NCBI RefSeq assembly: GCF_018138715.1
Contig: NZ_JAGSHX010000006.1
Span: 7,998,001 to 8,062,000, forward strand
Origin: Streptomyces asiaticus
GTDB lineage: Bacteria > Actinomycetota > Actinomycetes > Streptomycetales > Streptomycetaceae
Length of the DNA stretch: 64,000 nucleotides
Reading direction: 5' to 3'
Position numbers and translations under genes: made by a program. Numbering within the stretch: position 1 is the first letter of the stretch; the number at the start of each line of letters is the position of its first letter. The notes beneath the pieces were generated by a model, which was not told where the DNA came from, did no database searches, and was given only the letters and a program-made list of their open reading frames with translations. Shown piece after piece: positions 1 through 33,846 of this stretch.

Positions 1-118
1 AACCGAAGACGTCCGCGTCGGCCGCCCAGGTCTTCCCCGTACGCTTCGTCAGGTACCCCAGCATTTCCCTCTGGACGGCGCCGGAGTCCGGCACCGGCTG
101 GTCGGATGACGTGGTCAT
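1..118 (-). CDS. probable acyl carrier protein, N-terminal part only
   Basis: The reading frame starts at ATG 118..116, with GGGAG just upstream, and runs off the window edge. About 39 residues are visible, including the stretch REMLGYLTKRTGKTW followed by an acidic DADVFG segment. This resembles the helix-1 and loop region of free-standing carrier proteins, but the phosphopantetheine serine lies outside the window. It is the next gene after the Rieske protein (46 bp gap) and on the same strand, so it is probably in the biosynthetic operon. The ACP assignment is inference from a short fragment. Confidence 0.5.
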   Translation of the reverse strand, partial: MTTSSDQPVPDSGAVQREMLGYLTKRTGKTWAADADVFG

Positions 119-164
119 GCCTGTTCTCCCTCGTACTCGTGGACCAGGTCTCGCCGGCCGGTGG

Positions 165-1274
165 TCACTCCTCCGAGCGGCTCGCGCCGGCCCGGGGAGG
201 TCGCGGTGGCACGAGATCGTCCGTGGGTTCGGTGTAGAACTGCTGCGCCCACTGCCGGTACCGGCCGATCGGACCGTCGCCCTTGGCGAGCTTCGGGTGC
301 TCGACATGCTCCTGGTAGTGCCACATCAGCAGGTCCGCGCCGGTGTCGACGCTCGCCACCCGCTGGAGAACGGCGCTGAGCAGCCGGGCGACGGGCATGG
401 CCGCCGCGCGCCCCACCGTCCCGGGCACGCCGGGGATCCCGTTCAGCTCCAGCTTCGTACCGAACCGGAGCTGGATGCGCCCCGGGCCGGTGGGGGTCGC
501 GTGGAGCATCACATGGAGGGTGCCCGCGCCCCGGGGCAGGACCGTGCGCGCCGCGATGGTGGCCAGTCCGATCACCGTGAGCGTGTAGGACTGGCGGAAC
601 CCGCGCATCATGGTGCCGCGGGCGGTCGCGGTGACGGTGCTGGTCGGTTCCCCGGCCACCGGAGCGCCCTCGATGTCGAGACCTTTGAGACCGTGCAACG
701 CCGGCAGATGACCCCAGTCGAAGGCGTTCTCGATGACGTCCTGCGGGTGACCGGCGATGTCGAAGGTGTCGTGGCTGTACGGTTGCCGGTCGTCCATGGG
801 GAAGACCGGGACCTCCCACTGCGGGGGCAGGCCGAGCGCGTGCCACCACACATAGATCGAGCCGTTGGCCTCGCACACCGGGTACTGCGCCAGCGACGCC
901 TTCGGCGGTGGTTTGTCGTAACCGGTGCGCACACAGGTGCCGGCCGGGTCGAACGCGAACCGGTGGAAGGGGCAGACGATGTCCTCGCCCTCGACCGAAC
1001 CGCCGACCCCGAGATGCGCTCCCAGATGCGGGCACCGGGGCCGGACGGCCCGCAGCACGCCCTTGGCCGTGCGGTAGAGGACGACCTCCGTGCCCGCGAG
1101 CGGACGGGTGGTGACGGAGCCGGGGCGCACCTCGTCGGAGAAGGCCAGGCAGAACCATCCGTTCGGATAAGGGAGGGAAGGAGTGCGCAGGCTGTCGGCC
1201 GGGGCCGCGCTGGGCAGGCTGACCCTTCGGGCGTTGAGAAGCTGCTTCACCAGGGGCTTCAGGTGAGGCTTCAC
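165..1274 (-). CDS. Rieske [2Fe-2S] non-heme iron oxygenase
   Basis: 369-residue oxygenase-component-like protein. The Rieske cluster ligands are visible as C81-P-H83 and C101-P-F-H104. A downstream FDWGHLPALH segment fits the D/E-x2-H-x4-H mononuclear iron site, so this should be a hydroxylase or desaturase rather than a simple ferredoxin. The GTG start at 1274 is preceded by GAGGAG seven bases upstream, and that ribosome site overlaps the stop of the P450 gene. No reductase or ferredoxin gene is in view, so electrons must come from elsewhere. By position it is a tailoring oxidase for the polyketide cluster; the substrate is unknown. Confidence 0.85.
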   Translation of the reverse strand: MKPHLKPLVKQLLNARRVSLPSAAPADSLRTPSLPYPNGWFCLAFSDEVRPGSVTTRPLAGTEVVLYRTAKGVLRAVRPRCPHLGAHLGVGGSVEGEDIVCPFHRFAFDPAGTCVRTGYDKPPPKASLAQYPVCEANGSIYVWWHALGLPPQWEVPVFPMDDRQPYSHDTFDIAGHPQDVIENAFDWGHLPALHGLKGLDIEGAPVAGEPTSTVTATARGTMMRGFRQSYTLTVIGLATIAARTVLPRGAGTLHVMLHATPTGPGRIQLRFGTKLELNGIPGVPGTVGRAAAMPVARLLSAVLQRVASVDTGADLLMWHYQEHVEHPKLAKGDGPIGRYRQWAQQFYTEPTDDLVPPRPPRAGASRSEE

Positions 1275-1278
1275 GGCA

Positions 1279-2757
1279 TCACTCCTCGTGCTTCACCGGG
1301 CAGCCGCCGGCGCCCGGTGGCGTGGACGGGTGGGCGGGTGTGGAGGGCTGGGCGGGTGCGGACCGCGGCGTGGCCGCGTGCAGCCCGGCGTCGCCGGTGC
1401 CGCTCGTCCGCCGCTCACTGATCCGCAGGCGCAGCCCGCGCGAACTCAGGCTGGTCTCCACCTTGGGCTCGAACGGCTGGTCGCCGACGGGGGTCAGCTC
1501 CCAGCGGGCGACGATGGCGGTGAGGGCCAGGATGGCCTCGGTGAGGGCGAACTGGTCCCCGATGCACTTGCGCGCCCCGGCGCCGAACGGGATGTAGGCG
1601 GCTCGGTCGGGCTGACCGCCGAGCCAGCGGTCCGGGTCGAACCGGTCGGGCTCGGGGTAGAGGTCGGCCCTGCGGTGCAGCAGGTACGGGCTGAGCACGA
1701 TGGTGCTGCCGCCCTTGAGCCGTACCCCGCCGAGCTCGGTGTCCTGCCGGACCGCGCGGGTCATCATCCAGGCGGGCGGATACAGCCGCAGCGTCTCGGT
1801 CACCACCCGGGCGGTCAGGTCGAGCGAGGGCAGGTGCGCGGGGTCGACCTTCCCGCCGGCCAGGACCTGATGGGTCTCGGCCCGGAGCCGGCGCTGGACG
1901 TCCGGGTTGGTGGCGAGCAGGTGCAGCGCCCAGGCCAGGGTGATGGCCGTGGTCTCCATCCCGCCGAGGAAGAACGTGAGGGCCTCGTCCGCCAGTTCGG
2001 TGTCGCTCAGTTGCTTCTGGCCGTCCTGGCTCTCCTCGTCGACCGCCGCGACCAGCGTGGAGAGCAGGTCGGCATGGTCGGTCGGATCGGCGCGCCGCTC
2101 GGCGATGATCTCCGCGATGGTGGCCGACAGCCGGTTACGGGCCTGGTCGTAGCGCCGCTTCCGCGGAGTCGGCACCCGGCGCAGCAGGGCCGGTGTCATC
2201 ATCCGGCGGAAGAACGCGGTCACGATGGTGGAGGTGTCGGCAAGGGCCCGCCGCATGGTCTCGGCCGGCAGCGAGCCGCTGAACATCGTCTCCATGGTGG
2301 CGCGCGTCGTCAGCGTCATCATTTCCTGGGTGATGTCGAGGACGTCGCCGTCGCGCCAGGATCCCGCCTTCACCTCGGCCGCCCGGGCGAACACCGCCCC
2401 GTACCCGGCGAGCCGGGTGGGGTGGAACGACGGCTGGCACAGCCGCCGCTGCCGCCGGTGCAGGGGGTACGGGCAGGTGGACAGGCCGTCGCCGATGACC
2501 TCGCGGATCCGGTCGTAGATCGGGCCGCCCTTGTCGAAGACACGGTCGTTCAGGAACACCTGCCGGGTCAGGTCCGGATCGCAGATCATCATGGCGGTAC
2601 TCGGGCCCAGCCGGACGCGGACCATCTCGCGGTAGTCGGACAGGGACATGATGAACGCCAGCGGATCGCGGAGCAGGGGCAGTGCGTGGCCCAGCAGTGG
2701 CAGGGCCCGCGGAGCCAGCGGCACCGACGCGGCGGTCGCCGTACTCGTGTCCGTCAT
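1279..2757 (-). CDS. cytochrome P450, tailoring oxidase
   Basis: 492-residue soluble bacterial P450. Visible signatures are the I-helix GGMETT oxygen-binding segment, the ExxR motif (ETLRL) and the heme loop FGAGARKCIG with the proximal cysteine. The ATG start at 2757 overlaps the KASIII-like stop as ATGA, with AAGGAGG upstream, so the two genes are translationally coupled. An upstream TTG at 2763 is possible but less likely. The C-terminus carries a Pro/Ala/Thr-rich tail of about 40 residues that is dispensable in most P450s. It probably oxidises the polyketide product before or after the Rieske enzyme. Confidence 0.93.
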   Translation of the reverse strand: MTDTSTATAASVPLAPRALPLLGHALPLLRDPLAFIMSLSDYREMVRVRLGPSTAMMICDPDLTRQVFLNDRVFDKGGPIYDRIREVIGDGLSTCPYPLHRRQRRLCQPSFHPTRLAGYGAVFARAAEVKAGSWRDGDVLDITQEMMTLTTRATMETMFSGSLPAETMRRALADTSTIVTAFFRRMMTPALLRRVPTPRKRRYDQARNRLSATIAEIIAERRADPTDHADLLSTLVAAVDEESQDGQKQLSDTELADEALTFFLGGMETTAITLAWALHLLATNPDVQRRLRAETHQVLAGGKVDPAHLPSLDLTARVVTETLRLYPPAWMMTRAVRQDTELGGVRLKGGSTIVLSPYLLHRRADLYPEPDRFDPDRWLGGQPDRAAYIPFGAGARKCIGDQFALTEAILALTAIVARWELTPVGDQPFEPKVETSLSSRGLRLRISERRTSGTGDAGLHAATPRSAPAQPSTPAHPSTPPGAGGCPVKHEE

Positions 2758-3782
2758 GACCAACCTCCTTCTGTGTGGGAGCGACCGGCCGGTGCCATGG
2801 CGGCGGGATCGCGGGTGATCTCGAGCAGCGCGGTGGTCCAGCGGAAGCCGACCCCGAAACTCACCACGAGGACGCGGTCCCCGGTCCGCAGCGTGCCGGA
2901 GCGGAACGCCCGGTCGAGGGCGAGCAGGACGTCGGACGGGCCGGCGTGGCCGAGGTGGCGGCCGTAGGTCCAGCTGGTGTCGTCGGCGCGGAGGCCGAGT
3001 GGTGAGCCGCTGAGCAGCATGTCGAGCACGACCGACCCGATCGCGATGGGCACCACGTGCGCGATGTCCGCCGGTTTCACCGCGGCCTCGTCGAGGACGG
3101 CCTCGATGCAGCGGTGGGTGGCCCGCTGAAGGACGTCGATGTGGGGCATGAACCCGGTCTCCTCGACGGGGGACCGCCGGGCGACACCGGTGTGGCCCTC
3201 CCTGGTCCGGGTCTGCGCCTCCAGCCGCGACTCCGTGACATGGGCGGTCGCCACCAGGCGGGCGAAGCCCGTCCCCCGGGTGAGGACGGCGGCGGCGCCG
3301 GCGTCACCGGCCACGTAACCCAACTCCCGGGAATAGCCCCACCGTTCGTCCGGGAACCGGGCGCCGGTCGTGACCAGCGTGGCCTTCGCGTCCGGCCGGG
3401 CGGCGAGGTGGTCGGCCGCGGCGACGAGCGCGGCGGCCCCGCCGTCACTGGCGGCACCGACCTCGATCCCGGCGGTGTCCTTCCCCCCGAGCACCCGCAT
3501 CAGATAGGCCGAGGGCGTGTAGTGGTCCGCGTCCTGGAAGCCTGCGTGCACGAGCAGACTCAAGTCGGCGCCGGCCACGTCCGCGTGGCGCAGTGCCTTG
3601 AGACCGGCCCGGGCCGCCATCTGTGTGGCCGTGTCGTCCTTCGAGACGGCGGCGGAGGTGAATCCGTTGAGCGCCATCATGGAGGGCCGCCCGGTGCCCG
3701 GCCCGCCCGTCGGCTCGTGCTCGGGCCTGATGGGGGGTATCCACGCGCCGGTCCCGGCGATCGTGATGTCCTGCCACAACAC
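2754..3782 (-). CDS. KASIII-like acyltransferase, Cys replaced by Ser
   Basis: 342-residue thiolase-fold protein of the FabH (KASIII) family. The start is GTG 3782 with GGAGGAG upstream. Aligned by eye to FabH, the active-site cysteine falls on Ser in GAASDGG. The usual HQAN histidine motif is absent (VVPIAIGS), and the FabH GN(T/A) position reads GHAGPSD. This Ser/His/Asp pattern recalls KASIII-derived acyltransferases such as DpsC and CerJ, which move an acyl group instead of doing a decarboxylative condensation. It sits 35 bp after the synthase gene and overlaps the P450. Family membership is clear. The acyltransferase role is inference. Confidence 0.8.
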   Translation of the reverse strand: MLWQDITIAGTGAWIPPIRPEHEPTGGPGTGRPSMMALNGFTSAAVSKDDTATQMAARAGLKALRHADVAGADLSLLVHAGFQDADHYTPSAYLMRVLGGKDTAGIEVGAASDGGAAALVAAADHLAARPDAKATLVTTGARFPDERWGYSRELGYVAGDAGAAAVLTRGTGFARLVATAHVTESRLEAQTRTREGHTGVARRSPVEETGFMPHIDVLQRATHRCIEAVLDEAAVKPADIAHVVPIAIGSVVLDMLLSGSPLGLRADDTSWTYGRHLGHAGPSDVLLALDRAFRSGTLRTGDRVLVVSFGVGFRWTTALLEITRDPAAMAPAGRSHTEGGWS

Positions 3783-3798
3783 TGCTGTCTCCTCCGCT

Positions 3799-3834
3799 GT
3801 CACGAAAGGGGCGACTGTCACGAAAGGGGCGACT
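3799..3834 (-). repeat. 18-bp tandem duplication at synthase/KASIII joint
   Basis: Two exact 18-bp copies (3799-3816 and 3817-3834) lie between the synthase and the KASIII-like gene. The TGA stop of the synthase lies in the second copy. The duplication lengthens the intergenic spacer without disturbing either gene. Confidence 0.9.
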
Positions 3835-6800
3835 GGGGAACGCGGGCGCGGGGCCGGACCAGCTCTCCGCTGTGGTCCAAGGCGTGTGCGGTGACCCCGG
3901 TGATACGGGCCAGCACCTTGCCGTGACCGGTCACGGCGGTCAGGTCCCCGGTGGCGAAGTCGCAGTGCAGCCGGATGGCCGGGTGCTCCGCGCTGAGCAG
4001 GCAATCGTTGCCCGGCCCGCCGAGCTCGACCTCGTCGAGACCGGCCATCGGGCCGACCAGTGGCGGGTGGTCGCCGCGCGGTGGCAGCAGCAACAGGTGC
4101 ACCATCGCGTCCAGCAGGATCGCCGGTACGGTCATCCCCGCCAGGGCCGGAGCCCAGGCGGCGTGGTCCAGACCGAACCTGGCGCTGTTCCCGTCCGGCC
4201 CACGGGCGTAATCGCTGGTCCCGGCGAACGGGCCGGTGAGCGAGATCGGCGGGTCGGGGGAGTAGACCGGCATCGCGAACTCGGGTTCGGGGTCGTGGGA
4301 CGAGAAGTCGGGTGGTCCGGCGAGCACGGGATAGCGATCCGCCAGCACGACCGTCGTCTCGCACAGCAGGTCGTTGAAGCGCAGGACCTTGCCGTTCTTG
4401 CCGATCCGGTGCGCCGTCATCCGGACGGCCACCTCGGCGCCGTCCCGCTTCCGGCTGGTGACCCGGGCCTCCACCGCGACGGTGCGCCGCGGTCCGGCGA
4501 GCCTGACCGTGATCGACGTCCGGCAGACGAGACCGCGGAACCCGGTGACCACGAGGTCGGGGCAGAGGGTCGCGGCCGCGGCGGCCGCGGCTTCCAGGGT
4601 GAACGTGCCGGCCAGTGTGTACTCACCGTTGACGCGGTGGTGACGCATCCACCGCCCGTCCCGCTCGGCCAGGGTGTGCGGATCCCAGGTCTTGGTGAAG
4701 ACGGCCCAGCTCTTGCCGCGGTGCAGGACACCGTCGAGCAGCGGACTGGTCAGCGACGGATCCGGCACGGCGGGCGGCGGCGCGTCCGGAGCGGGGATCC
4801 GCGGCTCGCCGGAGGAACCGTAGGTGCTGGTCCCGCCCGGGCCGTAGGTGCTGATCCCACGCCGGGCCAGCAGGACGCGTTCGTCGTCCCGGATGAAGAA
4901 CGCCACCCCGGCGGCCGGTGGCCGGGTCACGGCGGAGAGGAACTGCGCGCATCCCTGCTCGGTGCTGATGTAGGCGTCCATCTGGTTGCGCTTGAGGGTC
5001 TCCCGCATGGTGACGCTGCTGGCGACGCCGACCTCCCGCCAGCCGCTCCAGAGGATCGCCAACTCCCGGTGACCGTCCGGTCCGTGCCGCTGGGCCCAGG
5101 CGCTCGCGTACGCGAGGTACTCGTTGACGGCGCAGTAGTCGATGTCACCGGGCGCGGGCGCGAGCGTCGCCAGGGTGCTGAAGTTGCACCAGATCCGGGG
5201 CGGACGCCCGGCCAGGGCCCGTTTGAGGTTGCGGTAGCCGGTCGCCTTGGTGGCCCGGACCGCCCGGAAATCGGTCAGCGTCTTGGCGTGCAGCGCACGC
5301 GACCGCAGGTCGAGGACGGTGTTGATGAGCAGGTCGATCTGTCCGTGCCGGTCGACGACCTCGTCGAGGACGGCGGTGGTGGCCTCGGCGTCGAGGATGT
5401 CGCACACGCGGTGGTGGACACGGTCCTGGCCGCACAGTTCGGTCAGCCGCCGCACGGTACGGCGTACCTCCAGGCGCGCCTGGGCCTTCTCGTAGGCGGC
5501 GCGCAGCTCGCCCACCGACGCGCCGGGGCGGCTGCGGTGTTCCGCGGCGATGAACTCGGCCTGCGGCGGCAGCGCGTCGTCGCCTTCCGGCAGCGGGGTG
5601 CGGCCGATGACGTACACATGCGGCCGGTCGCTGGTGCGGGCGATCGCGTGGAGGAGCTCGGGGGTGATGCCCCGGGCGCCGCCGAAGGCGACCACGACCG
5701 CGCCGGGCGGCAGCGAGGCGGCTTCCGCCGGGGGCGGTGGAGCGTGGTCGTCGGCGACGGCCAGGGTGAACCAGTCGCCCCCGCGGCAGGCCAGTGTGTG
5801 GGTCGGCACCTGGGCGGCGCCCGCCCGCGCCAGCTGGTCCAGGGCGGTCGCGGCGTCCGGCGCGTCGCTGAGCAGGGTCGCTCCGCCGCACTGCGGGACC
5901 TCGGCCCGGACGGAGCGGACGAGGCCGGTGAACAGCCCGCTCAGCGGGGGTGGCAGATCGTCCGGCACCGCGCCGAGCAGGAGCGCGCCGAGCGAACCGC
6001 CGGTGCGCAGCGCGGGCAGCGCCGCCTGGAGGGTGGTGAACGTGAGGTCCTGAAGGTCCTCCATCCGGGTGGCCTCGGCGTCGTCGCTCCCGTCGTCCTG
6101 GACCGGCAGCCGGGACAGGACCCGGATATGGCGCGGGATGAACGGCAATTCGGCCAGGGCGCCGGGCGCCTCATCGGGCGGGACGTGGGTGGCGGTTCCG
6201 AGGCCCGGCCGCGGTGCCCAGACGGCGATGTCCGGGCCGGTGGCGGCCGCGGCGAGATCCGGGGCGTCGGTGATGACGATGGTGCCCGGCGGGATCGACC
6301 GCGCGGCCGAGCCGTTCCGCGGCGGGGCCGTCGGGACGAATCGGAGGGTCTGGCGGCGGCCGGTGAAGTCCTCGGCGTGTTCCGGACCGGCCGCGTCGGG
6401 CGCGGTAGGTTCCGGCTCGGTGTGTGCGGCAGAGTCCGGCTCGGTGTGTGCGGCAGAGTCCGGCTCGGCGTGTGCGGCAGAGTCCGGTTCGGCGCGCGTG
6501 GTCCGGTCCGGTCCGGTGTGTGCGGCACCCCCCGGCCGGGTGAACCGGATCAGTGGTGATCCGGGGGCGGCGGGCGTCACGACGGTGTCCGCACCGGTGG
6601 AGACGGCCTTGAGGACCGCCAGCAGGGCGTCCAGCGACAGATAGGTGTGTCCGGCGTCGGCCAGTACGGGAAGGGCGTGCCCGGGCGTGGCCGGGCGTCG
6701 CGGATCGGTGGCCTCGACCGCGGTGGAGAGCGAACCCAGGACGGGCAGGTCGTGTTCCAGCGCGGTGGAGAGCCGGGTGACCGCCAGGACGGCGGCACCT

Positions 6801-9800
6801 TCCGCGATGGACCGGCCCTCCGGCACCAGTTCGTCGAGGTGGCGGTCCCAGCCGCTGATGGGCCGCTGGCACACCGCGCCGACGAGGGCGAGGTCGCAGG
6901 CGCGGTGCCGGAGTTGGCGCAGCGCCAGGTCGAGGGCGGTGTGCGCGGAGTCCCGGTGGGCGTAGACGCTGGTGCCCATACCCCGGAAGTCGTAGTAGTT
7001 GGCGGCCCGGCCCGACAGGATGCAGGAGACCGCCCCGGTGAAGTCGTCCTCGTTCAGATCGCCGGGGATCACCCCCTTGGCCTCCGCCATCCCCTTCGCG
7101 AGGTACTCCTTGAGCGTCTGCGCCCGCACCCGGTCGGGCAGGATGTCGAACGTGGTGGCGCACTCGCCGGCGTGCACCCGCAGCGCGGCCCGGGTGTTGT
7201 GCGTGGTCGGCAGCGTCGCTCCCACGACCACCGCCGTGGTGGGCCGAAGGCTGACGCCCGGCTCACCGAGCCGGTCCAGCAGCGGGCCGAGGGCCTGGAG
7301 CATCATCAGGTGGGCGGGGTCCATATGCCGCATGGTCAGCGGCGGGATGCGCACCTCACGCGGGGACGGCAGAGGGTACGGCACACCGAAGCCGGCGTCC
7401 GGGAGCGGGCCGTCACCACTCAGCCAGGCGGGGACCTGGGCGGTGTCCAGGCCGGGCAGATGGGTGTTCCAGCCCACGACGACCAGTTGCTCCGTGTCCG
7501 CGCGAGCCTCACCGCCCCGCCGCCGCGCGGGGGCGGCCGTCGGCACCCGGTCGGACAGGACCACATGCGCGTCCGCCCCTCCGAGGCCGAACGACGACAC
7601 CCCGACCACACGCGGCCGTGTGTCCTCCACCGGCCAGGGCGCGTCCCTGACCGGTACGGTCAGCCGCGTGCCGTCCTCCAGCAGCGGGTGCGGATCGGTG
7701 ACCACGGGCTGACCGGGGACCGCCCCGCGTTCGAGCGCGACCAGCGCGTGCGCGACCGAGACCAGGCCCGCCAGCACACCGGTGTGCCCGAAGACCTGCT
7801 TGTTCGAGGTCAGCAGGCAGGCCCGCTTCCGCGGCCCCAACCGGGAGAGCAGCGAGCGCAGTTCGATCTCGTCGCCCACCGGTGTGCCGGTGCCGTGTGC
7901 CACCACCCAGTCCACGTCGTCGGCCTCGATGCCCGCGTCGGCCCAGGCCCGGGCGATGGCCAGCTCCTGACCGCGCGTGGCCGGAGCGTGAATGCCCTTT
8001 CCCCGGCCGTCGGCGGCGAGACCGGTGCCCCGGATGACACCGAGCACCCGGTCGCCGTCCGCCACGGCCCGTGCGTACGACTTCAGGGTGAGCATGATGG
8101 AGCCCTCACCGATGAGGGTTCCGTCGGCCGCCTTGTCGAAGGGGCGTATCCTGCCGCTCATCGCGATGCCCTGGGCCCGGCAGAAGAGGGTGAACCCGAT
8201 CGGCTCGATCACCGAGGTGCCACCGGCCAGCGCCACATCGCAGGAACCCTCGCGCAGCGCCTTGACCGCCGCGTCCAGCGCGAACAGTCCGCTGGCACAG
8301 GCCGCGTCGAGGGTCAGGTGCTGCGAGTCGTCGGGGATCAGTCCGCGCAGCGCGTCGCGGGAGACGGACGCGGGCAGGTAGGCCTTCGGGTCCCCGCCGT
8401 CGCCACCGTAGTACGCGCTGATCGCGTGGTCGGCCAGCTCGGCCAGCCAGTCACCGTCCTGGTCGGCGGGGATCGCCTCGCGCACCATGCGCCGGTACTC
8501 GTCCCCCAGCACGACACCCTGCGGGCCGAGCCCCGTCTGGTCGTGGATACCGGTGGTCGTGGCGAGCCACCGGTCCGTCGGGCGCCGGTGCACCCCGGCC
8601 AGGGCCTGTACGGCGCAGTGCCGCAGCCAGCGAGTGGTACGCGGCCATCCGGGGCGGCCGACGTTCCCGTCCGGTTCGGCGATCGATGCGGGGTCGGGGA
8701 CGAAGCCGTGGACGTACGCGGCCTCGCGAACGTAGAAGGCGTCGGTTTCCTCCCGGGTGGGCGCCCAGAAGTGCTTCAGGTCGAAGGCGGACGGTTCGCT
8801 GGAGATCAGGGCGCCCTCCCGTAACCGGTCCCAGAACTCCGCCGTGTTGTTCGCGCCGGGCAGGACCAGACCGAGGCCGACCACGGCGACGGCTTCGGGG
8901 TCCGTCTCGGGTGGTTGGTCGGGTGCTGGGGCCGGTGCCGGGTCGGGCGCCGGGTCTGGCGCTTGGTCCTGTGCCGGTGCCGCCACCGGTGCCGGTTCCG
9001 GTGCCTGTGCCTGTGCCTGTGCCTGTGCAGGGCGGGCAGCCTCCGGTTGGCGCCTGGCGGGCCTGCTCACCTGGTCCGCCAGCCTGCTGTGCAGCCGCAG
9101 GCCCTGCATCCCGCCGATGCTGATGCCGCCGTCGGCGACGATGGTCTGCCCGGTGATGAAGCCGGCGTCCTCGTGCAGGAGGTGGACGATCAACTTGGCC
9201 GCCTCCGGTGTCGAGAGGGTACGGCTCATCAGCTCGCTGGCCTCGGCCGGGCCACCTGGCGTCGCCGCCGGGGCGTCCAGGTTGACGACGATTTCGCTCG
9301 CGACGGAGCCCAGCAGCACCGTGTTGACCCGGATGCCCTGGCCGACCAGCTCGAGCGCCAGATAGCGGACCAGCGACTCCAGGGCCGCCTTGGTGACACC
9401 GCCGGGGCCGTAACCCTGAACCGGCTGGTGCGCCCCGACGCTGGAGAGACAGAGGATGCTCGCGCCGTCCCGTCCCGCCATCAGCTCGGCCGCCCGGCGC
9501 GAACAGTGGTAGGCCGCCATCACATTGGTGGACCACGCCCGCTGCCAGTACGTGTCATCGATGTCGAACAGCGGCAGGAAGGCCCCGCCCGCGGCGTTGT
9601 TGATCAGAATGTCCAGGCCGCCGTGGCGCTCCTGGACCAGGTCGAACATCCGGTCGATCTCGCTGGTCTTGGCCACTGAGGCACGGATGAACTCGCAGCT
9701 GTGACCGGCCTGCTCCAGCTCCGCCCGCAGCCGCTCCGCCTGTTCGACCGAGTGGAAGTAGTTGACGATCACGTGGGCCCCGCTCCCCGCCAAGCGGCGC

Positions 9801-9877
9801 ACGATGTCCGCGCCGAGGCTCTTCGCGGCCCCCGTCACCAGGGCGACCCGACCCCGCAGGTTCTCTGTGGAGGTCAT
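3818..9877 (-). CDS. iterative synthase: FabL-type ER, KS, CLF-like KS, KR, DH
   Basis: 2019-residue multidomain synthase. Residues 1-265 form a short-chain reductase with Y-x6-K (YGPGGVTK), the enoyl-reductase spacing of FabI/FabL rather than Y-x3-K. After a Pro/Ala/Gln-rich linker comes a full KS (about 328-772: DAACAS near 524, HGTGT near 661, FGHTG near 696). A second KS-like domain (about 795-1060) has no catalytic cysteine (YAHRDSAH) and no HGTGT, like a chain-length factor. A repeat linker (1131-1155) leads to a KR (about 1390-1650, GGARG and YCAVNEY). Last is a double-hotdog DH (H in HRVNG near 1746, DAMVH near 1923; the usual Pro is Ala). The KS-CLF pairing recalls PfaC of PUFA synthases and HglE-type synthases. 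The start overlaps the AT-ACP stop (ATGA). No AT or ACP is built in. Confidence 0.92.
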   Translation of the reverse strand: MTSTENLRGRVALVTGAAKSLGADIVRRLAGSGAHVIVNYFHSVEQAERLRAELEQAGHSCEFIRASVAKTSEIDRMFDLVQERHGGLDILINNAAGGAFLPLFDIDDTYWQRAWSTNVMAAYHCSRRAAELMAGRDGASILCLSSVGAHQPVQGYGPGGVTKAALESLVRYLALELVGQGIRVNTVLLGSVASEIVVNLDAPAATPGGPAEASELMSRTLSTPEAAKLIVHLLHEDAGFITGQTIVADGGISIGGMQGLRLHSRLADQVSRPARRQPEAARPAQAQAQAQAPEPAPVAAPAQDQAPDPAPDPAPAPAPDQPPETDPEAVAVVGLGLVLPGANNTAEFWDRLREGALISSEPSAFDLKHFWAPTREETDAFYVREAAYVHGFVPDPASIAEPDGNVGRPGWPRTTRWLRHCAVQALAGVHRRPTDRWLATTTGIHDQTGLGPQGVVLGDEYRRMVREAIPADQDGDWLAELADHAISAYYGGDGGDPKAYLPASVSRDALRGLIPDDSQHLTLDAACASGLFALDAAVKALREGSCDVALAGGTSVIEPIGFTLFCRAQGIAMSGRIRPFDKAADGTLIGEGSIMLTLKSYARAVADGDRVLGVIRGTGLAADGRGKGIHAPATRGQELAIARAWADAGIEADDVDWVVAHGTGTPVGDEIELRSLLSRLGPRKRACLLTSNKQVFGHTGVLAGLVSVAHALVALERGAVPGQPVVTDPHPLLEDGTRLTVPVRDAPWPVEDTRPRVVGVSSFGLGGADAHVVLSDRVPTAAPARRRGGEARADTEQLVVVGWNTHLPGLDTAQVPAWLSGDGPLPDAGFGVPYPLPSPREVRIPPLTMRHMDPAHLMMLQALGPLLDRLGEPGVSLRPTTAVVVGATLPTTHNTRAALRVHAGECATTFDILPDRVRAQTLKEYLAKGMAEAKGVIPGDLNEDDFTGAVSCILSGRAANYYDFRGMGTSVYAHRDSAHTALDLALRQLRHRACDLALVGAVCQRPISGWDRHLDELVPEGRSIAEGAAVLAVTRLSTALEHDLPVLGSLSTAVEATDPRRPATPGHALPVLADAGHTYLSLDALLAVLKAVSTGADTVVTPAAPGSPLIRFTRPGGAAHTGPDRTTRAEPDSAAHAEPDSAAHTEPDSAAHTEPEPTAPDAAGPEHAEDFTGRRQTLRFVPTAPPRNGSAARSIPPGTIVITDAPDLAAAATGPDIAVWAPRPGLGTATHVPPDEAPGALAELPFIPRHIRVLSRLPVQDDGSDDAEATRMEDLQDLTFTTLQAALPALRTGGSLGALLLGAVPDDLPPPLSGLFTGLVRSVRAEVPQCGGATLLSDAPDAATALDQLARAGAAQVPTHTLACRGGDWFTLAVADDHAPPPPAEAASLPPGAVVVAFGGARGITPELLHAIARTSDRPHVYVIGRTPLPEGDDALPPQAEFIAAEHRSRPGASVGELRAAYEKAQARLEVRRTVRRLTELCGQDRVHHRVCDILDAEATTAVLDEVVDRHGQIDLLINTVLDLRSRALHAKTLTDFRAVRATKATGYRNLKRALAGRPPRIWCNFSTLATLAPAPGDIDYCAVNEYLAYASAWAQRHGPDGHRELAILWSGWREVGVASSVTMRETLKRNQMDAYISTEQGCAQFLSAVTRPPAAGVAFFIRDDERVLLARRGISTYGPGGTSTYGSSGEPRIPAPDAPPPAVPDPSLTSPLLDGVLHRGKSWAVFTKTWDPHTLAERDGRWMRHHRVNGEYTLAGTFTLEAAAAAAATLCPDLVVTGFRGLVCRTSITVRLAGPRRTVAVEARVTSRKRDGAEVAVRMTAHRIGKNGKVLRFNDLLCETTVVLADRYPVLAGPPDFSSHDPEPEFAMPVYSPDPPISLTGPFAGTSDYARGPDGNSARFGLDHAAWAPALAGMTVPAILLDAMVHLLLLPPRGDHPPLVGPMAGLDEVELGGPGNDCLLSAEHPAIRLHCDFATGDLTAVTGHGKVLARITGVTAHALDHSGELVRPRARVPQSPLS
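6411..6482 (-). repeat. 24-bp tandem repeat in the synthase linker
   Basis: Three 24-bp units (6411-6434, 6435-6458, 6459-6482), followed by a degenerate fourth, encode an eight-residue AEPDSAAH/T repeat between the CLF-like and KR domains. A flexible interdomain linker is the simplest reading. Confidence 0.9.
8919..9040 (-). repeat. short Pro/Ala/Gln repeats in the ER-KS linker
   Basis: Low-complexity hexamer-type repeats encode alternating QAQAQA and DPAPDPAP stretches between the FabL-like domain and the KS. This is a typical flexible interdomain linker and marks the boundary where the reductase was fused to the KS. Confidence 0.8.
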
Positions 9878-11385
9878 CGTCCGGCAGCCCCCGATCGGGC
9901 CTGCACGACGGCCTCCGCGATCCGGCGCAGCGTGCCGACGGTCAGGAGGGAGGAATTCGCCCGCAGAGCGGGCAGCTCGTACCGGTCGGACACCATCCCG
10001 AGCAGGGCGACCTGCTTGAGCGACTCCACACCCAGCTCGGCCTCCAGGCCGTCGTCCTCACCGAGCAGATCGGGCGGGTAGCCCAGGAAGTCGCCGTAGA
10101 GCGTCCGCAACTCCGCCAGCACCGTTTCGTAGTCCAACCCGGCAGAGGACGGCGAGGCGACGGGGGCGACCGCGACCGGGGCGACCGGGGTAGCCGGAGT
10201 CGGAGCCGGAGCCGGAGCCGCGGGGGCCGGGGAGGGGACGGGGGCCACATAGGACACAGGGGCCGCAGGTGATGCGGACACGGCGGACACGGCGGCCCGG
10301 ACCGGCGGCGGATCGGTGACGGGAAGTGTCGCCACCGGTCCGGCCGGCGTGGGCTCACTCACCCGTACGACGGGACCATGACCGTTGCTCGACGGTGCCG
10401 ACGAGCGCGAGCGGAACGGGCCACCGCCGGTGGAATCGGCGACCAGCGCCCGGACGGCCCCGACCGGGTCGCGCTCGCTCAGCGGAACGACACACTGCAC
10501 CCCAGGGATCGACGCCTCGACGAACTTGGTGACGACGGGCCACTCCCCGCACTCGACGAAGGCATCGGCGCCGGCCGCGTGCAGCTCACGGATGGTGTGC
10601 AGCATCCGGACCCGGGAGGTGAGCGCACCGGCGACCAGGTCGACCGGGTCGTCGTCGCCGACGTCCCGCCCCAGCCATGGGGAGCACACCCGCCAGTGCC
10701 CGGCACCGTACGGAACCCGTGGCGCCGATTCCCGCAGGTCGCGCGCGGCCTGCGCCATGGCCGGAGTGTGGGTCGGATGCGGGACGTCGAGTTGGAGACT
10801 TGGCCAGCCGAGCGCGTCGGCCACCCGCTCCACATGCTCGATCAACGCTTCGGGGCCGCTGATGACGCTCTGCCGAGGGGCGTTCTCGCAGGCCAGTACC
10901 AGGTGCGGATGGTTGATCAGCTCGGCGAGCGACTCCGCCCGGCGGCCGTCCACTCCGACCGCGAGCATCTTTCCGCCCCAGCTCCGCCGGGTCAGTACCT
11001 GGGACCGGGCCACGGCCAGCCGCGCGGCGTCCTCCACGGACAGATGCCCCGCGGCGGCCAGGGCCCACAGCTCCCCGATGCTCTGCCCGACGATCGCGAT
11101 GGGCTTGGCACCCTCGGCGATCAGCATATGGTGCGTTGCGATGCTGACCGCGAAGATCTCCAGATATTGCACGTCGGGGCCGCGCCGGTCGCTCGTCTCG
11201 TTCTGTTCGACAAGCCGGGCACTGATGTTGGGCAGCCCCATTTCCTGGGCGGCCTTGTCGATTCGGGACAGCGCTTCACGTACGGCCTCGTAACGGTTGT
11301 GTAAGTCGCACAGAATGCCTCCGCGCGGGGCGGCAACCGTTCCCGGCATGACAAAGACAGAATCCACCACGTGCATCACCCTCAT
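9874..11385 (-). CDS. acyltransferase-ACP didomain protein
   Basis: About 503 residues. The N-terminal part is an FabD-like acyltransferase with nucleophile motif GQSIGE near residue 98 (Gln replaces the common His), a conserved Arg in VARSQ and a PTHTP histidine segment, compatible with malonyl use. A Pro/Ala/Val linker leads to a C-terminal carrier domain with the phosphopantetheine serine in GVESLKQ near 454. The protein supplies the AT and ACP missing from the large synthase, whose start it overlaps by 4 bp. Start choice: ATG 11385 (GGGA six bases upstream) or ATG 11376. The frame stays open to 11544, but that extension lies before the conserved VFVMPGT beginning of AT domains. Confidence 0.88.
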   Translation of the reverse strand: MRVMHVVDSVFVMPGTVAAPRGGILCDLHNRYEAVREALSRIDKAAQEMGLPNISARLVEQNETSDRRGPDVQYLEIFAVSIATHHMLIAEGAKPIAIVGQSIGELWALAAAGHLSVEDAARLAVARSQVLTRRSWGGKMLAVGVDGRRAESLAELINHPHLVLACENAPRQSVISGPEALIEHVERVADALGWPSLQLDVPHPTHTPAMAQAARDLRESAPRVPYGAGHWRVCSPWLGRDVGDDDPVDLVAGALTSRVRMLHTIRELHAAGADAFVECGEWPVVTKFVEASIPGVQCVVPLSERDPVGAVRALVADSTGGGPFRSRSSAPSSNGHGPVVRVSEPTPAGPVATLPVTDPPPVRAAVSAVSASPAAPVSYVAPVPSPAPAAPAPAPTPATPVAPVAVAPVASPSSAGLDYETVLAELRTLYGDFLGYPPDLLGEDDGLEAELGVESLKQVALLGMVSDRYELPALRANSSLLTVGTLRRIAEAVVQARSGAAGR

Positions 11386-13453: not shown

Positions 13454-16400
13454 ATGAGAAGAAGACATCACGGTCGGCGGTTATCCGCCGGGCTTGTGAC
13501 GGCAGGTCTGCTCACGGTCGGGCTGCTGCCCGTGACAGCCCAGGCCGCAGCGGGAGCCCAGGCCGCAGAGGGAGCCAATCTGGCGCTGGGCAGGCCGGTG
13601 ACGGCCAGTGGGGCACACGGCTCCTACCCGGCGAGCAATGTCACCGACGGCAGCCAGGCCTCCTACTGGGAGGGTCCCGCGGGCTCGTTCCCCCAGTGGG
13701 TGCAGGTCGACCTCGGGACCAAGGCGGACATCGACGAGGTGGCACTGAAGCTCCCCGCGTCGTGGGAGTCCCGCACCGAGACGGTGAGAGTCCTGGCCGG
13801 CCCGGACGGCCAGGACTTCACCACCGTGGTTCCGGACGTGCGCAAGGACTTCTCGCCGTCGTCCGGCAACACGGTGGCGCTCGACGTCGCGGCCGAGGCG
13901 CGGTACGTGCGCGTACAGGTGACCGGCAACACGGGCTGGAACGCCGCCCAGCTCTCCGAGGTGGAGGTGCGCGGGGAGGCCGGCGGAAACCCGCCCACGG
14001 GCACCAACCTGGCCCTGCGCAAGCCGATCGAGGCGTCGTCGACCACCCAGGACTACGTCGCGAGCCACGCCAACGACGGCAGCACCTCCACATACTGGGA
14101 GGCGAGCGGCCAGTCCTCGACGCTGACCGCGAAGCTCGGCGCCGACGCCGATCTGACCGGCGTCGTCGTCAAGCTGAACCCCGATCCCGTCTGGTCCACC
14201 CGGTCGCAGAGCATCCAGGTGCTGGGACGGGCGGCCGGAGAGTCCGGTTTCACCTCGCTGAAGGACCGGGCCGACTACACCTTCAGCCCGTCGCAGAACA
14301 AGAACACGGTGACCATCCCGGTCACGGGACGGTACGCGGACGTACGGCTGCACTTCTCCGGCAACACCGGCGCCGGCGGAGGACAGGTCGCCGAGTTCGA
14401 GGTCGTCGGCACGGCCGCACCCGCGCCCGACCTGACCGTCACCGAACTCGCCTGGTCGCCCGAGTCGCCCTCCGAGGCGGACGCGGTCACCGTCGAGGCG
14501 ACGGTCCGCAACGCCGGGACGGCCGCCGCGCCCGCGACCACGGTGAACGTCAGCCTCGAGGGCACGGCCGCCGGCAGCGGCGCCGTCGGCGCGCTCGCGC
14601 CGGGCGCGTCACAGAAGGTGCCGGTCAAGGTCGGTAAGCGGCCCATGGGCAGCTACACCGTCTCCGCCGTCGTCGACCCGGCCGACACGGTCCCTGAGCT
14701 CGACAACACCAACAACAGCCGCAACGCAGCCTCGAAGCTGGTCATCGGCCAGGCCCCCGGACCGGACCTGGAGGTCACCGGCATCACCACCAACCCCGCC
14801 GGCCCGGCCGTCGGCGCCAAGGTCACCTTCACCGTCGCGGTGCACAACAGGGGGACGAGCGCGGTGCCCGCCGGATCGGTCACCCGGCTCACCGTCGGCG
14901 GGACCACGCTGAACGGCACGGCGGGCACCATCCCGGCCGGTGGCACGGCCACCGTGGCCATCGGCGGCGACTGGACCGCCACCAGCGGGGGAGCGACGCT
15001 CACCGCGACGGCCGACGCCACCGACACCGTCGCCGAGACCAACGAGGACAACAACACCTTCACCCGCTCCCTCGTCGTCGGACGCGGCGCCGCCGTGCCG
15101 TACACCGAGTACGAGGCGGAGGACGGCCGGTACGACGGCACCCTGCTGACGACGGACGCCAAGCGCACCTTCGGGCACACCAACTTCGCCACCGAGTCCT
15201 CGGGGCGCGAATCGGTCCGGCTCGACACCAGCGGTCAGTACGTGGAGTTCACCTCCACCACGCCGTCCAACTCGATCGTCGTCCGCAACTCGATCCCGGA
15301 CGCGGCGGGCGGTGGCGGCAGGGAGGCGACCATCAGCCTCTACGCGGACGGCACCTTCGTCCGCAAACTCACCCTGTCCTCCAAGCACAGCTGGCTCTAC
15401 GGCACCACCGACGACCCGGAGGGCCTGACCAACCGGCCCGGCGGCGACGCCCGGCGGCTGTTCGACGAGTCCCACGCCCTGCTCACCGACACCTACCCGC
15501 CGGGTACGAAGTTCCGGCTCCAGCGGGATTCCGGTGACGACGCGGCCTTCTACATCATCGACCTGGTCGATCTGGAGCAGGTCGCGGCACCCGCCGCCAA
15601 GCCCGCCGAGTGCGTCTCCATCACCGACTACGGGGCCGTGCCCGACGACGGCATCGACGACGCGGACGCCATCCAGCGCGCCGTCACCGCGGACCAGGAG
15701 GGCGCGATCCCCTGCGTATGGATCCCCGCGGGCCAGTGGCGCCAGGAGAAGAAGATCCTGACCGACGACCCGCAGAACCAGGGCCAGTACAACCAGATGG
15801 GTATCCGGGACGTCACCATCCGCGGTGCCGGGATGTGGCACTCCCAGCTCTACTCGCTCATCCCGCCCCAGGAAGCGGGTGGCATCAACCACCCTCACGA
15901 GGGCAACTTCGGCTTCGACATCGACGACAACACCAAGATCTCCGACATCGCCATCTTCGGCTCCGGCACCATCCGCGGCGGCGACGGCGGTGCCGAGGGC
16001 GGTGTCGGGCTCAACGGCCGCTTCGGCAAGAACACCAAGATCACCAATGTGTGGATCGAGCACGCCAACGTCGGCGCCTGGGTCGGCCGCGACTACTCCA
16101 ACATCCCCGCGCTGTGGGGGCCCGGTAACGGCCTCGAGCTCAGCGGCGTACGGATCCGCAACACCTACGCCGACGGCGTCAACTTCACCAACGGCACCCG
16201 CAACTCGACCGTGTACAACTCCTCGTTCCGCAACACCGGTGACGACTCACTCGCCGTCTGGGCCAACAAGTATGTGAAGGACACCTCGACGGACATCGGC
16301 CACGACAACCACTTCCGCAACAACACCGTCCAACTGCCCTGGCGGGCCAACGGCATCGCGGTCTACGGCGGCTACGGCAACACGATCGAGAACAACCTGA

Positions 16401-16855
16401 TCTCCGACACCATGAACTACCCGGGGATCATGCTGGCCACCGACCACGACCCGCTGCCCTTCTCGGGCGAGACGCTCATCGCCAACAACGGCCTGTACCG
16501 CACGGGCGGCGCGTTCTGGGGCGAGGCGCAGGAGTTCGGCGCGATCACCCTGTTCGCCCAGGGGCAGGACATCCCGGGGGTCACGATCCGCGACACCGAC
16601 ATCCACGACTCCACCTACGACGGCATCCAGTTCAAGACGGGCGGCGGCGCGATGCCCGGCGTCCGGATCGGACACGTCACCATCGACAAGTCCAACAACG
16701 GGTCCGGGATCCTCGCGATGGGCGGGGCGCGCGGCGACGCCACGCTGACGAACGTGAGGATCACCAACTCGACTCAGGGCGATGTGGTGAAGGAGCCCGG
16801 CTCGCAGTTCGTGATCAACGGCTCCGCGAACCGGTCCTCCGCATCGCGCGATTGA
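13454..16855 (+). CDS. secreted GH87 alpha-1,3-glucanase (mutanase type), multimodular
   Basis: 1133 residues. A signal peptide is visible at the N-terminus (RRR start, hydrophobic core, AQA). Next come two F5/8-type (discoidin-like) sugar-binding domains (about 30-175 and 180-320), two CARDB-like beta domains (about 325-540), a CBM6-like module starting YEAEDG (about 550-700) and a right-handed beta-helix catalytic domain. In that domain YADGVNF and TGDDSLAVW place an Asp 23 residues before an Asp-Asp pair, matching the GH87 catalytic triad spacing. The ATG 13454 start has GAGAAGG upstream. Codon 10 is TTA (13481-13483), so translation probably needs the bldA tRNA. Likely substrate: alpha-1,3-glucan of fungal walls or biofilms. 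Confidence 0.87.
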   Translation: MRRRHHGRRLSAGLVTAGLLTVGLLPVTAQAAAGAQAAEGANLALGRPVTASGAHGSYPASNVTDGSQASYWEGPAGSFPQWVQVDLGTKADIDEVALKLPASWESRTETVRVLAGPDGQDFTTVVPDVRKDFSPSSGNTVALDVAAEARYVRVQVTGNTGWNAAQLSEVEVRGEAGGNPPTGTNLALRKPIEASSTTQDYVASHANDGSTSTYWEASGQSSTLTAKLGADADLTGVVVKLNPDPVWSTRSQSIQVLGRAAGESGFTSLKDRADYTFSPSQNKNTVTIPVTGRYADVRLHFSGNTGAGGGQVAEFEVVGTAAPAPDLTVTELAWSPESPSEADAVTVEATVRNAGTAAAPATTVNVSLEGTAAGSGAVGALAPGASQKVPVKVGKRPMGSYTVSAVVDPADTVPELDNTNNSRNAASKLVIGQAPGPDLEVTGITTNPAGPAVGAKVTFTVAVHNRGTSAVPAGSVTRLTVGGTTLNGTAGTIPAGGTATVAIGGDWTATSGGATLTATADATDTVAETNEDNNTFTRSLVVGRGAAVPYTEYEAEDGRYDGTLLTTDAKRTFGHTNFATESSGRESVRLDTSGQYVEFTSTTPSNSIVVRNSIPDAAGGGGREATISLYADGTFVRKLTLSSKHSWLYGTTDDPEGLTNRPGGDARRLFDESHALLTDTYPPGTKFRLQRDSGDDAAFYIIDLVDLEQVAAPAAKPAECVSITDYGAVPDDGIDDADAIQRAVTADQEGAIPCVWIPAGQWRQEKKILTDDPQNQGQYNQMGIRDVTIRGAGMWHSQLYSLIPPQEAGGINHPHEGNFGFDIDDNTKISDIAIFGSGTIRGGDGGAEGGVGLNGRFGKNTKITNVWIEHANVGAWVGRDYSNIPALWGPGNGLELSGVRIRNTYADGVNFTNGTRNSTVYNSSFRNTGDDSLAVWANKYVKDTSTDIGHDNHFRNNTVQLPWRANGIAVYGGYGNTIENNLISDTMNYPGIMLATDHDPLPFSGETLIANNGLYRTGGAFWGEAQEFGAITLFAQGQDIPGVTIRDTDIHDSTYDGIQFKTGGGAMPGVRIGHVTIDKSNNGSGILAMGGARGDATLTNVRITNSTQGDVVKEPGSQFVINGSANRSSASRD

Positions 16856-31759: not shown

Positions 31760-32656
31760 TCAGACGCGGTCGGCCGCGATGAGCAGGTACTGGAAGGAAC
31801 CGTCCTTGTAGGAGTTGATGAACGCCTTCTCAATGCCCGTGACCAGTGAGGACGTGGCCCGCAACTCCCAGTACGGCAGGGTCGCGGGGGTGAGGTCGAT
31901 GACGGCCTGCGGTACGAGGCGGTTGTCGGCCATGGCGCGCAGGTATTCCCGGCGGGAGTGGATGTTGCACTCGAAGTGCGCGTTGATCAGGGAGACATAC
32001 TTCGAGGGCTGGCCGTAACGCGGGTTCCAGCAGCCGGTGATGGTCACGTAGCGCCCGCCGGTCGCGAGGATGCGGGAGTGCTCGGCGAAGAGGTCTCCCA
32101 GGTCGACGTACATGCTCGACTCGTTGTTCCACGAGGCCGCGGCCCGCCCGGTCTCGAAGGGCGTACCGAGCATGTCGCAGACGCGGGCGTGGACATGGTC
32201 CTCGATGCCGAGTTCGCGGGCGCGCTGGTTGGCGAAGTCGGCCTGCTTGGCCGACAGTGTGACGCCCTCGACCCGGCACCCGAAGCGCTGGTGTGCCATG
32301 ACCATCGAGCCGCCGCGGCCGCAGCCGGCGTCAACGAGCGTGTCGTCACGTTCAATCGGGCCGAGGTGGTCCAGGAGGAGTTCGGCCTGTGCCGACTCCA
32401 GGCGGTGGAGCTCGGCGATCAACTTCTTCTCGTAAGCGCCGTCGCCGGTGTCGCCGAGGGCGCCGCGGTCGACGTCTCCAATGCCGTAGTGGTGGTGGTA
32501 TAGGCCGTCGACATCGCCGAGACGCAGGTTCACGGGCCTGGCCTCGCGGTCCCAGTAACGGGCGATGTCCCCCTGGTAGGGGGTCGCCGGGGCGGGGATG
32601 AACATGGCGGCGCCGGAGGAGGTGGCGACGTCGGCGCTGAAGTCGGTGCTGGTCAC
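31760..32656 (-). CDS. geranyl diphosphate 2-C-methyltransferase
   Basis: 298 residues. A SAM-binding motif LVDAGCGRGGS and an N-terminal YWDREARPVNLRLGDVDGLYHHHYGIG are characteristic of GPP C2-methyltransferases, which make 2-methyl-GPP for 2-methylisoborneol. The start is GTG 32656, 17 bp after the synthase stop. The open frame upstream to 33565 is antisense-free shadow of the synthase gene. It forms a two-gene operon with the synthase. Product: the earthy odorant 2-methylisoborneol. Confidence 0.93.
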   Translation of the reverse strand: MTSTDFSADVATSSGAAMFIPAPATPYQGDIARYWDREARPVNLRLGDVDGLYHHHYGIGDVDRGALGDTGDGAYEKKLIAELHRLESAQAELLLDHLGPIERDDTLVDAGCGRGGSMVMAHQRFGCRVEGVTLSAKQADFANQRARELGIEDHVHARVCDMLGTPFETGRAAASWNNESSMYVDLGDLFAEHSRILATGGRYVTITGCWNPRYGQPSKYVSLINAHFECNIHSRREYLRAMADNRLVPQAVIDLTPATLPYWELRATSSLVTGIEKAFINSYKDGSFQYLLIAADRV

Positions 32657-32673
32657 AGATGGTTCCGTTCTTC

Positions 32674-33846
32674 TTACCAGAAATCGGGCAGGCTGTAGCG
32701 GAAGGTATTGGTCTGGTGCCAGTAGTGGTTGCCGTCGACCCACGCGGCCACGCCCCGGAGAAAGCGCTGCGCGGTCGGGACGGGAAAGGCGACGGCCACG
32801 GCCGCGGCTTCGGCCTCGAAGTCGTGCATGAGGTCGTTGTGGACTTCGACCGCCTTCAGATAGGCGTCGCGGTCGGAGAGGCCCTCGCGTTCGGCGATCA
32901 CCACGGGCAGGTTCAGATGCCGGCCTGGGCCGGCGAGTTCCTTGGTGTACGAGTACAGGTCGTTCACGATGGTGGTGGCGTTCCCGGCGAGCGCGATGAC
33001 CCGCTGCATGGCGGGCTGGGCGTGCAGATCGGCCGGTAGTTCGTAGCCGCCGACGCTGTCGGTGATGGTGGGGCACGGGCGGAAGTTGTTGAACTGGCGC
33101 ATGGCCAGGTACTCCCACACCTCGGGGACGTGGTCCGTCTGCGCCCAGGCGGCCTCGGCGAGGTACCCCATGTGCAGACGGGCCATGTCGTGCCGGAACC
33201 GGTCGGCCTGGGACGGGCTGGACGCCTGGACGAAGTACTCCATGGCGGAGCGGTAGGCGCGCCGGGGCGCGTCCGAGTGGAGCGACTCCGCCCACCGCGG
33301 CTGGTACTCCCGCGTCGTGTGCAGGGCGTCCAGGGCGGTGTGCGCCAGCAGAAGGCGTCCGCCGAGGCCGATGGGCGAGCCGCCGTGGTCCTCGCAGTAG
33401 CAGTCGTCCACCGCGTTCTCCGCCACCATCAGGCGTGTGGCGAGCATCAGATGGTCGACGGTGGGGGCGTCCGGATGGCAGGCGACCATGTAGCGCCCCA
33501 CGGAGAAGCCGTCGAACTGCTCCTCCCACTCCTCGGGGTACAGGTCGACCTCGTCCAGCGCCCAAGCCTTGATCCTGCGGCTGACCTCCTCCACCCGCCC
33601 GGGGTCGGGCTCCGGCACCGGGTGGTGATAGAGCCCCGGGATCGGGTTGCCTTCCGCCGGAACCGCCGCCGACGGCGTCGGTGGCGCCGGTGGCGTCGGC
33701 GGCTCCTCGCGCCGGGCCAGGCGCAGACCTGCCGTGCCGAGGCCGCTCGGACCACGCAGGATCCGTGCGACGTCGGCGTTCGCCCCGGAGCGGGAAGCGG
33801 CCGCAGGCAGGCGCGATTGCGGAGGGGAAGGCTCAGGGGCGGGCAT
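32674..33846 (-). CDS. 2-methylisoborneol synthase (class I terpene cyclase)
   Basis: 390 residues. A low-complexity Pro-rich N-terminal region of about 65 residues, typical of MIB synthases, precedes the cyclase domain. The metal-binding motif DDCYCED (residues 147-153) and the second motif NDLYSYTKE are both intact, and FNNFRPCPTITDSVGGYE matches the family. The ATG 33846 start has GAGGAG six bases upstream. It cyclises 2-methyl-GPP to 2-methylisoborneol, working with the methyltransferase downstream. The cyclic-nucleotide-binding (EshA-like) gene that often precedes it in Streptomyces is not here. Confidence 0.95.
   Translation of the reverse strand: MPAPEPSPPQSRLPAAASRSGANADVARILRGPSGLGTAGLRLARREEPPTPPAPPTPSAAVPAEGNPIPGLYHHPVPEPDPGRVEEVSRRIKAWALDEVDLYPEEWEEQFDGFSVGRYMVACHPDAPTVDHLMLATRLMVAENAVDDCYCEDHGGSPIGLGGRLLLAHTALDALHTTREYQPRWAESLHSDAPRRAYRSAMEYFVQASSPSQADRFRHDMARLHMGYLAEAAWAQTDHVPEVWEYLAMRQFNNFRPCPTITDSVGGYELPADLHAQPAMQRVIALAGNATTIVNDLYSYTKELAGPGRHLNLPVVIAEREGLSDRDAYLKAVEVHNDLMHDFEAEAAAVAVAFPVPTAQRFLRGVAAWVDGNHYWHQTNTFRYSLPDFW

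Follow-up and report, generated by a model that had tools for sequence, protein, structure and literature searches.

What does a two-protein polyketide synthase (PKS) make when its chain carrier sits on the acyltransferase protein? The question is raised by an operon at the left end of a 64,000-nucleotide stretch of Streptomyces asiaticus DNA (hereinafter the window: bases 7998001–8062000 of a contig of 10.1 Mb, the whole genome measuring 11.88 Mb). Its genes, all on the minus strand, code for an acyltransferase–acyl carrier protein (AT-ACP), a synthase combining short-chain dehydrogenase/reductase (SDR), ketosynthase (KS), chain-length-factor (CLF)-like, ketoreductase (KR) and dehydratase (DH) domains, a KASIII-like protein, a cytochrome P450, a Rieske protein and an ACP. 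The host lies near the S. violaceusniger clade, its nearest named proteins coming from S. asiaticus and S. iranensis. An initial annotation made from the sequence alone could name no published product for such an arrangement of genes, and in this it was wrong: identity to a Streptomyces galbus protein, synteny and the literature all indicate a gene set, galA–E, that makes galbonolides. We put the probability at about 95% that the locus is the already characterized galbonolide (rustmicin) cluster, with most genes of its methoxymalonyl branch missing.

The synthase, GalB, is 80% identical to the S. galbus β-ketoacyl synthase E5DHQ1 (2048 aa) over a 1724-column alignment. A protein search with GalB gave 2871 relatives among 7999 candidates scored, and the matches with over 70% identity, among the best 120 of the 2871, include proteins from Streptomyces, Embleya and Micromonospora. 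In a FastTree phylogeny of 120 GalB-type proteins, GalB, E5DHQ1 and Micromonospora proteins fall in one 44-member clade with a support of 1.0. The AT-ACP gene lies directly upstream of the synthase gene and is followed in order by genes of the galC, galD and galE types, the same order and the same pairing of an AT-ACP with a single synthase as in the cluster of S. galbus, an organism of the galbonolide studies, and in gbnA–E of strain AgN23. Galbonolides are antifungal macrolides. According to a report on AgN23, galbonolides A, B, E and G are lost when gbnB is knocked out, and the pathway is drawn with gbnA–E for the macrolide and gbnH–K for methoxymalonate (PMC11463028). A further study states that galABCDE suffice for galbonolide B and that galGHIJK are needed for galbonolide A, and places the galbonolide core in strain 11-1-2 (PMC11074319). 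Strain ADI96-02 is listed with a galbonolide cluster in a third source (PMC7093587) and was recovered in our contig scan with all ten genes present (L036). The AT-ACP and SDR-KS-CLF-KR-DH pair of the window is an iterative PKS already known, as is the class of its product; a characterized cluster with the same domain order and a known product exists in the galbonolide cluster.

The layout is not a chance arrangement, as the order galB-C-D-E recurs in 20/20 close relatives that hold this flank. The scan yielded 78 loci, of which genes were called on 32 (L019–L049 and L083). Galbonolide-clade versions of galA, galB or both occur in 22 of these, and two of the 22 (L029 and L044) are cut by contig ends, leaving 20 for comparison. 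All 20 have galB-C-D-E in order, with extra genes interspersed in L039, and galA precedes galB in 19 of them, the contig of L023 ending at that point. Domain matches and this synteny together identify galD (gbnD; 1279–2757, minus strand) as the cytochrome P450 gene (PF00067, E 1.1e-76) and galE (gbnE; 165–1274, minus strand) as that of a Rieske oxygenase-like protein (PF00355 and PF19298). The striking layout is thus ordinary among galbonolide producers, which settles the product class; what remains of use is a probable starter loader of the DpsC kind serving a type I iterative synthase, a reduced methoxymalonyl branch, and a widespread paralogous branch of the synthase family.

Some points weigh against the galbonolide assignment. 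That E5DHQ1 is the published GalB, and that galC, galD and galE of S. galbus code for KASIII-like, P450 and Rieske proteins, is our assumption. A methylmalonyl preference of the GalA AT is putative, and its specificity motif, HPTH, matches neither of the textbook forms. Strain ADI97-07, listed with galbonolides in the same source (PMC7093587), is not among the 78 loci of the contig scan. Finally, the gal cluster of this strain may be silent, its product class being a prediction from the genes.

The methoxymalonyl branch sets this copy apart from those of S. galbus and AgN23: they are reported with methoxymalonyl-ACP genes, whereas the copy here keeps only the ACP, the sole member of the set found at E 1e-4 in 84 kb (the window plus 20 kb to its left). 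The gene set specific to galbonolide A is therefore not present as such in this neighborhood; according to the study cited above, it is not required for galbonolide B (PMC11074319). In the relatives the set runs dehydrogenase, ACP, acyl-CoA dehydrogenase, FkbH and methyltransferase, and is complete in 15 of the 20 loci. It lacks FkbH and the methyltransferase in L022, FkbH in L026 and the methyltransferase in L027; L039 has none of the five genes; and L030 (Streptomyces samsunensis) has an intact ACP among broken neighbors, differing by 3–6 residues from those of L019, L020 and L022. In Streptomyces sp. NBC_01237, galA–E and a complete methoxymalonyl set lie together on a linear plasmid of 1.6 Mb (L113, NZ_CP108509.1:1101495–1134973).

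Traces of the missing genes can be discerned at the locus. Between galE and the ACP gene, nine minus-strand codons (118–144) resemble the end of a 3-hydroxyacyl-CoA dehydrogenase-like gene, agreeing in 7 of 9 residues with the C-terminus that the intact copies of L019 and L020 encode, and run in frame into the ACP start; taken alone this match has an E-value of about 2, and the case rests on its position, which is as in L019 and L020. A Sir2-type gene to the left of the operon is 93–94% identical to its counterparts close to the L019 and L020 operons, and from this shared flank we infer that the intervening methoxymalonyl genes were lost. The flank beside the lost genes is decaying too, as seen in a 196-aa chimeric nitrile hydratase remnant (L013:19198–19788; window −802 to −212), which joins pieces of three open reading frames (ORFs) that are separate in L020.

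The surviving carrier protein (97 aa, PF00550, minus strand) shares 59–91% identity with the ACPs that 19 relatives have in this position; its ORF occupies positions 1–118, crosses the left window edge and is complete in the genome at window −175 to 118. It differs from its counterparts in L019 and L020 by 11 and 9 residues, respectively, while these two differ from each other by 2. Compared with L019, L020 and L027, its ratio of nonsynonymous to synonymous substitution rates (dN/dS) is near 1, and the same comparisons give 0.20–0.37 for galA, galC, galD and galE. The ACP ratio is 0.47 against L022 and 0.56 against L030, and the ACP of L027, where four of the five genes are kept, differs from that of L019 by 13 residues. 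With 8–17 of 96 residues differing, the ratios give a hint of relaxed constraint on the lone ACP that is too small and too uneven to carry weight by itself.

Could the strain still make galbonolide A, with the lone ACP charged with methoxymalonate by another FkbH-type locus? The genome has four other FkbH loci, three of which carry all five gene types, and the lone ACP is still an intact ORF. However, identity between the genes at these loci and the gal-type genes of L020 does not exceed 70%, so that none of the four is the gal set moved elsewhere, and a relocated set was rejected on this ground. The lone ACP, moreover, shares just 46–58% identity with its counterparts at the three nearest loci, and its dN/dS near 1 against L019, L020 and L027 points the same way, though as a hint given the lower values against L022 and L030. 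On balance, we regard continued galbonolide A production by this route as unlikely. Since the dehydrogenase, acyl-CoA dehydrogenase, FkbH-like and methyltransferase genes are missing, the main products are expected to be of the galbonolide B type, unless the other methoxymalonyl loci of the genome contribute.

The third gene, galC (gbnC; 2754–3782, minus strand), codes for a KASIII-like protein whose sequence matches in the PDB are led by the daunorubicin PKS chain 4xs7 (E 1.2e-34), which, like the other daunorubicin PKS chains, we take to be DpsC; CerJ (2.7e-31), the KASIII 9z38 and ChlB3 (2.2e-26) also match. Ser112, His279 and Asp284 of GalC align with the catalytic triad of DpsC and are present in 23/23 aligned rows. 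In the relevant report, the S118-H297-D302 triad of DpsC self-acylates, passes acyl groups to an ACP and is tied to propionate priming (PMC12664062). DpsC, the priming ketosynthase of daunorubicin synthesis, and GalC thus have the Ser-His-Asp triad and full-length similarity in common; they differ in that DpsC serves a type II PKS, while the partner of GalC is a type I iterative synthase. A GalC search of 12 other genomes gave matches in 11, none exceeding 37% identity.

The formula of the product bears on the starter unit. A feature predicted to be galbonolide B is reported at m/z 365.2315 (PMC11074319), and the sole formula of carbon, hydrogen and oxygen within 5 ppm of it is C21H32O5, which corresponds to seven C3 units provided that all carbons derive from propionate and methylmalonate. 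An all-C3 C21 skeleton combined with a DpsC-like triad suggests that GalC starts the chain with propionyl and that six methylmalonyl units are then added on the GalA ACP, and GalC is probably the propionyl starter loader. Alternatively, GalC might act as a KASIII-like acyltransferase and release or esterify the chain in the manner of CerJ or ChlB3. Both of these are among its best PDB matches, and no thioesterase family was found among the 25 scanned genes nearest the operon. Yet the highest-scoring matches are the daunorubicin PKS chains, which have the same Ser nucleophile as GalC, where CerJ aligns a Cys, and the all-C3 skeleton calls for a propionyl start. We accordingly consider a releasing or esterifying role doubtful and retain starter loading as the probable function.

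The two synthase genes conform to the initial description, with ORFs, Pfam matches and the junction between them confirming a 2019-residue SDR-KS-CLF-KR-DH protein beside an AT-ACP with a 4-bp overlap; ORF calls and domain matches likewise bear out the same-strand KASIII-like, P450, Rieske and probable ACP genes. The AT-ACP gene, galA (gbnA; 9874–11376, minus strand), ends at 9874 and has candidate starts at 11376, 11385 and 11544, of which 11376 is preferred because an identical database protein (P0123) has 500 aa. On the 556-aa reading, Pfam places the AT (PF00698) at residues 79–346 and the PP-binding domain (PF00550) at 478–545. Among 18 galbonolide-clade relatives, the AT motif GQSIGE is kept in 17 (GQSVGE in L039) and the ACP motif GVESL in all 18. 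The junction with galB (gbnB; 3818–9877, minus strand) reads ATGA, with the synthase start inside the AT-ACP stop codon, and the synthase ORF runs for 2019 aa without an internal stop.

Within GalB, Pfam recognizes adh_short_C2 at residues 16–252, ketoacyl-synt with its best stretch at 521–603, Ketoacyl-synt_C at 612–723 and KR at 1396–1614. The DH-like end gives a PKS_DH_N score of 26.3 bits, just below the 27-bit cut-off, and its His1747, Asp1923 and His1927 are invariant in 14 aligned sequences. Residue counts for the other domains use 29 homologous rows, a thirtieth (the second ORF of L040) being unrelated and excluded. The KS residues Cys527, His661 and His698 are kept in 29/29. The best PDB match of the SDR is the enoyl-acyl carrier protein reductase 3oic (E 3.7e-38), with whose Tyr-x6-Lys the GalB residues Tyr156-x6-Lys163 align, the Tyr being kept in 28/29 rows and the Lys in 29/29; both observations favor the FabL-type reductase originally proposed. 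Residues ~795–1120 match the KS of GalB itself (hhalign probability 96.2%, 137 columns), and Arg975 stands where the KS has its Cys. There is no Cys at 975 or either neighboring residue in any of the 29 rows; in L025 and L031 a Cys stands five residues beyond it. A PDB sequence search with this region alone gave one weak KS match (E 7.6e-5). The profile match to the protein's own KS and the missing active-site Cys lead us to assign a CLF-like domain here, in keeping with the earlier proposal.

This organization is consistent with a compact iterative, highly reducing system with the chain carrier on the AT protein, as had been claimed. The further claim that it is fully reducing goes too far if all cycles are meant: as oxygenated macrolactones with unsaturation, galbonolides require a reduction programme that varies from one cycle to the next.

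Bacterial polyunsaturated fatty acid (PUFA) synthases (PfaA–D) share with GalB a KS followed by a Cys-less KS-like (CLF) domain and an iterative type I logic, whereas GalA and GalB have one ACP, on the AT protein, and, as enoyl reductase (ER), an SDR that forms part of the KS protein. It is highly improbable that the locus encodes an undescribed PUFA- or HglE-like lipid synthase merely resembling GalB, as tentatively suggested at first: the GalB KS does match the PDB chain 6riw (“ORF10”), which we take to be the PfaC KS-CLF, and a PfaA model, and a CLF-like domain does follow it, but in both sequence and synteny the locus agrees closely with the galbonolide clade, and in the 84 kb the genes scanned, 45 of 72 called, hold no tandem ACP array, only the single PP-binding domain of GalA and one free-standing ACP, and no PfaD-like flavin ER, for which the other 27 genes and the rest of the genome were not searched. 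The PUFA/Hgl family was rejected on the missing array and the close galbonolide kinship. The idea that these genes are fragments of a modular PKS was likewise rejected, as there is no other PKS among the same 45 genes and none nearby among the genome candidates listed, the nearest other KS, among the best 150 of 208 candidates scored, lying ~0.24 Mb past the right end of the window.

For the galbonolide synthase of the window, the following course can be proposed. GalC would load a propionyl starter via an acyl-Ser onto the carrier or the KS, and the AT of GalA would charge GalA's own ACP with methylmalonyl. The GalB KS, paired with its Cys-less CLF-like domain, would then extend the chain six times on the single GalA ACP, iterative use of one module being published for the galbonolide synthase family. 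In each round the KR, DH and N-terminal FabL-type SDR would act as programmed, the per-round programme being conjectural. The chain would be released as a 14-membered lactone and then oxidized by GalD (P450) and GalE (Rieske), to give a main product of the galbonolide B type.

A search of the genome with GalA returned many AT domains of larger PKSs and one other full-length AT-ACP (33% identity; C6:1468287–1469783), beside which lies a 2032-residue SDR-KS-CLF-KR-DH protein 32% identical to GalB. This second system (L111:697–10814 and L114:10895–13685; G000:C6 ~1.457–1.470 Mb) has the same two-protein architecture as the gal locus at 31–32% identity. It differs in its additional genes, for an 800-residue KR/DH-like protein, SnoaL, an SDR and a P450, after which comes a squalene-hopene cyclase cluster. 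No GalC match was found at this locus at E 1e-3. Among 8000 candidates scored, 280 are related to the 800-residue protein at E 1e-3, and the best 120 of these have no informative names. In the FastTree phylogeny, the midpoint root, with 58 and 62 tips on its two sides, separates GalB from the L111 synthase. A literature search, in which subscription papers were poorly covered, recognized no described product for an L111-type system. We tentatively propose, at somewhat less than even odds, that the galbonolide synthase is one characterized branch of a broad family of compact iterative synthases of the “AT-ACP plus SDR-KS-CLF-KR-DH” type, and that the L111 branch (~1.459–1.470 Mb), with its separate KR/DH-like protein and SnoaL-type cyclase gene, would make a different, undescribed reduced polyketide. 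An undescribed product is plausible for the L111 branch, and not for the gal locus of the window.

Elsewhere in the window, a 1119-aa protein near the gal cluster (13496–16855) combines alpha-1,3-glucanase catalytic, F5/8-type and CARDB domains, and a 945-aa ORF (25840–28677) has no Pfam match at E 1e-6. Further to the right, a terpene synthase gene (PF19086) lies beside a methyltransferase gene (31760–33618), a pairing of the kind found in 2-methylisoborneol loci.

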